This document shows positions 49,689-50,011 of a stretch of 64,000 bases of DNA, one piece after another (within the stretch, counting starts at the first letter, position 1; every line of letters starts with the position of its first letter). Below the pieces are notes generated by a model. The model was not told the origin of the DNA and searched no databases. It saw only the letters and a list, made by a program, of their open reading frames with translations. The translations under genes were made by a program, and so were the position numbers. Origin of the DNA: Alphaproteobacteria bacterium SO-S41 (GTDB lineage Bacteria > Pseudomonadota > Alphaproteobacteria > Micropepsales > Micropepsaceae); assembly GCA_019670725.1 (NCBI GenBank), contig AP024629.1:3286001-3350000 (forward strand), in the 5' to 3' direction.

Positions 49689-50011
49689 GATTCTTGCGCC
49701 GGCGACGGCCCGAAGGCGATTTTGTCGAGTCTTCTGAATCGGTTGGGGGCCGGCGCTCGCGCAGAGCGTCCATCGGGCCGCAGGGCCGAAACGGAGAGTG
49801 AATCCTGTTCGCTCGCGAAATCGGCAGCAGCGGGCGAACTACATAAAATGCGTGGAGTGTGAGTCTTTTGAATCCCTTGACCCCAGTTTCTCCGGTTATG
49901 GTTAATTTCCGGCACAACATCTAGTGGGTCCCAACTTCACGGGACTCCACAGGAAGATGTGTTAAGACTTTGATTCCATTGAGACTCTTGACCGCGAGTC
50001 CCCGGGGACTC
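49689..50011. promoter_or_regulatory. Cluster of 11 GANTC sites upstream of ccrM
   Basis: GANTC sites at 49689, 49727, 49736, 49800, 49861, 49870, 49943, 49972, 49983, 49996 and 50007: eleven in 323 bp, against roughly one expected in this composition. No gene occupies the stretch from 49690 to 50043. The sites are the methylation targets of the enzyme encoded next door, so methylation-state control of ccrM is likely. A 16-bp perfect palindrome, GAGTCCCC-GGGGACTC, sits at 49996-50011. Confidence 0.8.

Follow-up and report, generated by a model that had tools for sequence, protein, structure and literature searches.

Fixed-register GANTC sites mark a putative ccrM core promoter in an alphaproteobacterium and its relatives

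Introduction

In the alphaproteobacterial cell cycle, a central part is played by the timing of CcrM, the methyltransferase that acts on GANTC in many members of the class. The textbook circuit, in which CtrA switches on ccrM, derives from Caulobacter and the rhizobia. Caulobacter ccrM has been described as activated by CtrA and transcribed only from hemimethylated DNA (PMC2217572), and in Sinorhizobium meliloti the gene is bound by CtrA and down-regulated when CtrA is depleted (PMC4433202). GcrA binds sigma2, the sigma70 domain that recognizes the -10 element, and promotes formation of the open complex when promoters are methylated (PMC7403470). Mutation of GANTC cripples several methylation-dependent promoters in Caulobacter (PMC3667746). 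In the same organism, a GANTC between -10 and -35 is associated with activation at 40-60 min of the cell cycle, whereas one outside this interval is associated with minimal expression at that time (PMC4287350).

A 2021 PLoS Genetics survey of GcrA and CcrM predicted ccrM to be a core GcrA target in many orders; the prediction draws on whether, and how often, extended GANTC motifs occur, and takes the form of per-gene probabilities, with one genome per order. The same survey reported that GcrA-type regulation of ccrM has been lost in freshwater Caulobacterales and in Parvularculales (PMC7987155). Earlier, Brilli et al. (2010) had tallied GANTC in the promoters of cell-cycle genes and judged that no form of control could be deduced from it; before ccrM, they reported DnaA motifs in cases that lack CtrA motifs (PMC2877005).

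The locus described here shares several features with these systems. As at the Caulobacter GcrA-CcrM promoters (mipZ, ctrA P1, podJ and ftsZ), GANTC lies between or near the -35 and -10 elements of a sigma70 promoter, and GcrA and CcrM are both encoded in the genome. The likeness to the ccrM promoter of Caulobacter crescentus consists in the same gene, GANTC in the promoter and a transcription that is said to depend on methylation state; that promoter is nevertheless set apart by its description as CtrA-activated from hemimethylated DNA (PMC2217572). Only 11 of 96 Caulobacter GcrA-CcrM start sites have more than one GANTC within the 50 bp upstream (PMC4287350), whereas here there are four core sites in fixed register plus seven further upstream, the target is ccrM itself, and the core sites lack the extended motif YGAKTCK. 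That ccrM is a predicted GcrA target was already known; what is added here is the fixed-register GANTC architecture. Its fixed spacing, the overlap with the -10, its near-exclusive use at ccrM and its loss from Rhizobiaceae are not described in the 2021 survey (PMC7987155), and no description of a fixed ccrM promoter architecture was found in the literature searched, which was largely open access.

Results

The array lies between a divergent MarR gene and an orthologue of ccrM

The window is the whole 64-kb stretch of DNA that was analyzed. A first-pass annotation of it had named the gene downstream of a GANTC array as ccrM, and the protein evidence bears this out. The product is full length, with an N6_N4_Mtase domain (PF01555, E 5e-68) and a C-terminal RAMA domain (PF18755, E 5e-18). 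Its residues 24-374 align with the solved Caulobacter CcrM structure 6pbd (E 1e-166). The match to NF050803 (CcrM), a profile named for the Caulobacter-type enzyme, scores 625 bits over profile positions 2-350 of 350; as this lies below the equivalog cut-off of 830 bits, the assignment as an orthologue rests on the full-length 6pbd match. The gene occupies 50044-51237 on the plus strand. The ORF caller placed its in-frame start at 50029 (ORF 50029-51237), and comparison with congeners suggests instead that translation starts at the ATG at 50044, which follows a conserved GGCGGGG ribosome site.

Upstream and divergent from ccrM, a MarR-family regulator gene (49175-49636, minus strand) is separated from it by a common intergenic region. 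The MarR gene, rnhB and a DUF1398 gene lie on one side of ccrM and mutY on the other. No supported gene was found between the MarR gene and ccrM, in agreement with the earlier description of the array stretch as essentially non-coding. A palindrome, TTGACTAGGAAAC...GTTTCCTAGTCAA, sits at 49640-49690 between the MarR gene and the array, and is probably a MarR operator.

The gcrA gene lies elsewhere in the same genome, at 3875024. Its product scores 161.8 bits against PF07750, is full length and matches Caulobacter GcrA 7ye1 over nearly its whole length. A second, partial GcrA-like domain (40 bits) is encoded at genome positions 1214143-1214454 (L226). The dnaA gene is at contig position 98, which is insufficient to fix the origin, and the GC skew of the sampled sequence is ambiguous.

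GANTC density upstream of ccrM is the highest in the sampled genome

All eleven GANTC sites that had been claimed for 49689-50011 (323 bp) are present, starting at window positions 49689, 49727, 49736, 49800, 49861, 49870, 49943, 49972, 49983, 49996 and 50007. The background of about one site per 300 bp assumed in the first-pass annotation proved to be an overestimate. We sampled 1.264 Mb (60 stretches of 20 kb plus the window, 28% of the genome), supplementing this with whole-genome pattern searches, and obtained an average of one site per 776 bp (1.29 per kb). Since the true background is sparser than assumed, the enrichment is stronger than was originally claimed. GANTC is in fact depleted, with 104 sites in the 64-kb window compared with 319 expected from dinucleotide shuffles, and is commoner in non-coding than in coding DNA (1.62 vs 1.20 per kb). 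At the non-coding rate, 323 bp should hold 0.52 site; the observed number is about 21-fold higher, with a Poisson probability of eleven or more of ~1e-11, and no other 323-bp stretch of the sample exceeds eleven.

The same picture emerges when individual genes are compared. Of 833 gene starts predicted from open reading frames in the sample, 750 have zero or one GANTC in the upstream 350 bp. The ranking is headed by ccrM with 11, followed by the divergent MarR gene, which has the intergenic region in common with it, with 8, and then by genes with 7, 5 and 5. Comparable densities are thus not found before many unrelated genes.

Other dense clusters are few, with ten sites at genome position 1805499 and eight each at 2220946 and 2952210. 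The first (1805499-1805706, L116:2500-2707) packs its ten sites into ~210 bp flanked by the 3' ends of genes for a HAD hydrolase and a trxB-like pyridine-nucleotide-disulphide reductase; four of the sites are spaced 20-21 bp apart in a degenerate repeat, and neither a promoter nor an RNA family explains it. The second (2220946-2221167, L117:2447-2668) extends over the end of gatB and the region upstream of a gene for a lysine/alanine-rich histone H1-like protein, and is followed by TTAAGACTTGACAGG. The third (2952210-2952483, L118:2211-2484) precedes a gene for a phosphate-selective porin and includes GTGAATCCTGTTCACC, which resembles an element of the distal ccrM region. Searches of the L116, L117, L118, L120 and L085 regions returned no Rfam match for a structured RNA.

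Four sites are built into a predicted core promoter

The four sites closest to ccrM fall within a compact arrangement at 49972-50016. It reads GATTC-N6-GACTC, followed by a predicted -35 and spacer, TTGACC-GC-GAGTC-N6-GACTC, the last site overlapping the first base of a predicted -10, CAGCGT. The promoter elements and the start site are predictions by comparison. Core site 1 (GATTC, 49972-49976) starts 16 bases ahead of the -35 (offset -16, counted from its first base) and is preceded by TTAAG, which is TTAAC in most relatives. Core site 2 (GACTC, 49983-49987) abuts the upstream side of the -35, which we place at 49988-49993 (TTGACC, plus strand), a TTGAC after which come exactly placed GANTC sites and a conserved -10. 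Core site 3 (GAGTC, 49996-50000, offset +8) is within the spacer, and the final C of core site 4 (GACTC, 50007-50011, offset +19) is the first base of the -10. The -10 itself, predicted at 50011-50016 on the plus strand from the information profile (consensus CANNNT), follows a 17-bp spacer and is weak, its first base being C.

Within this predicted sigma70 promoter, GANTC lies inside or beside the -35/-10 interval. Transcription would be expected to start near 50022-50024. By this predicted start, the sites belong to the core promoter and the region upstream of it, and the earlier placement of the array in a transcribed leader has to be given up. The extended GcrA motif YGAKTCK is matched by two of the eleven sites, 49727 and 49861, both of them distal, and by none of the four core sites. 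No TTAA-N7-TTAA CtrA box, as in the CtrA-activated ccrM promoters of the Rhizobiaceae and Brucella type, was found upstream of ccrM in the window, where TTAA occurs only as single half-sites, at 49902 and 49962; a CtrA box was accordingly rejected as the driver of this promoter.

The register of the core sites is conserved across much of the class

The right half of the core was searched as the pattern TTGACNNNGANTCN{4,8}GANTCA in 289 genomes of the class, where it gave 53 matches as against three for a reversed-pattern control. Although the pattern allowed gaps of four to eight bases, the gap is exactly six in nearly all matches. Of 30 matches that were fetched, 26 lie directly upstream of ccrM, and they represent 14 families. 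As this first set had been chosen by pattern, the analysis was repeated on 105 ccrM upstream regions selected by protein homology alone. Measured from TTGAC, GANTC was found at offset +19 in 36 instances, +8 in 24, -5 in 16 and -15/-16 in 26, compared with a mean of 0.5 per offset. The commonest distance between consecutive sites is 9-11 bp, or roughly one turn of the helix.

The +19 site is followed by A in 36/36 regions, and four positions beyond this A stands a T in 35/36. The near-invariant A and T independently identify the -10 as a hexamer CANNNT at the canonical 17 bp from TTGACN, and as CANNNT starts at the last base of the +19 site, the two share that base. Within the right-hand pair, when one site is present the other is GANTC in 20 cases, and one-mismatch forms number 0-1. 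The middle base is free, with all four letters observed at the +8 site. Fixed letters combined with a free middle base form the pattern that would be expected if methylatability is under selection.

In the family to which this genome belongs, the -10 site is present in 24/24 regions and the full right half in 15/24. The core also occurs in Kordiimonas, Dongia, Reyranella, one Rhodospirillaceae genome and one Pelagibacteraceae genome, and it is almost absent from Rhizobiaceae, Phyllobacteriaceae and Brucellaceae, whose median is 0-1 sites. The strict form, TTGAC-N14-GANTCA-N3-T, has a single occurrence in the 4.44-Mb genome, at ccrM, which rules out that the array is a general promoter feature of this genome. 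In an unbiased sample of the class, at least 52 of the 150 listed ccrM genes have it in front of them, no more than 134 bp from the aligned region on its upstream side. Among the matches listed for the genomes that have a listed ccrM, 52 of 83 occurrences are at ccrM.

The distal sites are shared only within the genus

Comparison with relatives shows that the array, which the first-pass annotation had treated as one unit, has two parts of different reach. Four congeners have 10, 11, 13 and 6 GANTC sites upstream of ccrM, so that the array as such is kept in the genus, and its proximal part extends far beyond it: the register of the four proximal sites is fixed over much of the class, and conservation of the distal ones stops at the genus. 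An alignment shows the proximal block TTAA(C/G)-N4/5-GATTC-N6-GACTC-TTGACnnnGAGTC-N6-GACTCA in each of the five genus members. The congener L089 has exchanged the middle base at three sites (GACTC to GATTC, GAGTC to GACTC and GACTC to GAATC), and all three are still GANTC.

Upstream of the core, the site at 49943-49947 (GACTC) is present in all five genus members and overlaps a DnaA-like CTCCACA (49945-49951). Beyond it the alignment is looser. Two copies of GANTC-N4-GANTC-NNTTG, near 49861 and 49727, are found in four of the five genomes. The first copy is the pair GAGTC-TTTT-GAATC at 49861-49874 (sites 49861 and 49870; also 4/5 genus members), after which a TTGACC at 49877-49882 may be a second -35. 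Transcription may also have a second start, near 49913. The pair GAGTC-TTCT-GAATC at 49727-49740 (sites 49727 and 49736) resembles it. Between the two, the GAATC at 49800-49804 lies within the element GTGAATCCTGTTCGC and recurs in L087 and L088 in the genus alignment. The most distal site, 49689-49693, is near the MarR gene's own promoter region and is unaligned in relatives.

Discussion

Our comparison suggests that CcrM probably takes part in regulating its own synthesis by way of the GANTC marks that it writes. More specifically, we lean towards the view, with some reserve, that 49972-50016 is a dedicated and old core promoter of ccrM whose autoregulation is read from methylation, probably by GcrA-sigma70 and in the sense of methylation-dependent activation. 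CcrM would methylate the core GANTC sites of its own promoter. GcrA bound to sigma70 would then read the N6-methyladenines and help RNA polymerase to open the weak -10, so that ccrM transcription would depend on, and be tuned by, a CcrM-made methylation that replication halves and resets. The extra sites further upstream, spaced for the most part by about one turn of the helix, would increase occupancy. The fixed sites around -35 and -10 give good support to the original idea of a ccrM expression that reads GANTC methylation, although not in the form that put them in the leader. As the first-pass annotation proposed, such expression may be a sensitive read-out of hemimethylation, and GcrA may bind cooperatively. 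Two qualifications apply to this activation model. The absence of YGAKTCK from all four core sites counts against the simplest GcrA reading. In addition, a strict methylation requirement would bar ccrM from restarting once methylation had been lost, so a fallback would be needed.

The main rival is repression of the promoter by full methylation. Here, fully methylated sites flanking the -35 and -10 would block polymerase, and the promoter would fire only in the hemimethylated window behind the replication fork, to be switched off once CcrM had remethylated it. The site that overlaps the -10 places methyladenines beside the melting region. Caulobacter ccrM is described as transcribed only when hemimethylated (PMC2217572), which would be the opposite sign for full methylation and, by analogy, would count against activation, and GANTC outside the -10/-35 interval has been linked in Caulobacter to minimal expression at 40-60 min (PMC4287350). 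Against repression, two of the four core sites lie within the spacer or on its border, where the same study finds sites that go with activation (PMC4287350), and a weak -10 with C as its first base is what would be expected of an activator-dependent promoter. As GcrA-type regulation of ccrM is reported to be lost in Caulobacterales (PMC7987155), Caulobacter is a poor model for this locus. We regard repression as rather unlikely, while taking it seriously.

Less probable still is that the GANTC sites are incidental to a conserved block that is in reality a binding site for a protein of the CtrA or DnaA type, or an ordinary sigma70 promoter. Nearby are a TTAA half-site (49962) and the DnaA-like CTCCACA (49945), and DnaA motifs have been found before ccrM where CtrA motifs are absent (Brilli et al., PMC2877005), yet the way in which the sites vary is hard to reconcile with this: the four fixed letters persist, the middle base is variable and forms with one mismatch hardly occur. 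The number of sites is also far above what one binding site would require, and TTAA-N7-TTAA boxes occur in only 2 of 69 array-bearing regions. With the full TTAA-N7-TTAA present in only 4 of 131 regions, a pattern search did not show that complete CtrA boxes and GANTC arrays are inversely related in a simple way. Accidental GANTC in an AT-richer intergenic stretch (57% GC as against 67% for the window, in non-coding DNA where GANTC is commoner, 1.62 vs 1.20 per kb) is scarcely credible and is ruled out as the source of the array by the sample maximum, the Poisson probability of ~1e-11 at the non-coding rate, and the recurrence of the same register in other families (53 matches vs 3 for the reversed control).

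From its conservation, the architecture suggests direct control of ccrM by its own methylation marks in much of the class, and control by CtrA as a later replacement or addition. The CtrA control of Sinorhizobium ccrM fits a replacement of one control by another. A wider account, which we offer more tentatively than the activation model itself, is that of an ancestral alphaproteobacterial promoter reserved for ccrM, with target sites in fixed register in the spacer and the -10 serving as a self-reading epigenetic switch, for which certain lineages, Rhizobiaceae among them, would have substituted CtrA control; in the genus, a link to nucleotide supply through an NrdR box would be possible. In practical terms, the compact promoter with its exact positions makes the sign and cooperativity of methylation reading addressable through four sites, and TTGAC-N14-GANTCA-N3-T provides a simple signature for many ccrM promoters with few matches elsewhere.

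The possible connection with NrdR comes from the palindrome GCACAACATCTAGTGG at 49912-49927, which matches 13 of 16 positions of the NrdR-box consensus, although the identification is uncertain. A similar palindrome occupies the same place in all five genus members, and the genome has an nrdR gene. An NrdR-like box is found in 14% of ccrM upstream regions compared with 0.1% of control windows. Of 31 strong NrdR-like boxes elsewhere, 21 fall within coding sequence at the 3' end of rnhB, and these weaken the case because conserved protein sequence can create them there. Control of ccrM by NrdR is thus an unproven, candidate link. The single box at ccrM shares its core with the nrdJ promoter. In the nrdJ promoter region (genome 2736073-2736361, L120:2574-2862) there are six GANTC sites together with a pair of NrdR-like boxes spaced by 31 bp, so that the upstream regions of nrdJ and ccrM contain the same two kinds of element, a GANTC cluster and an NrdR-like box.
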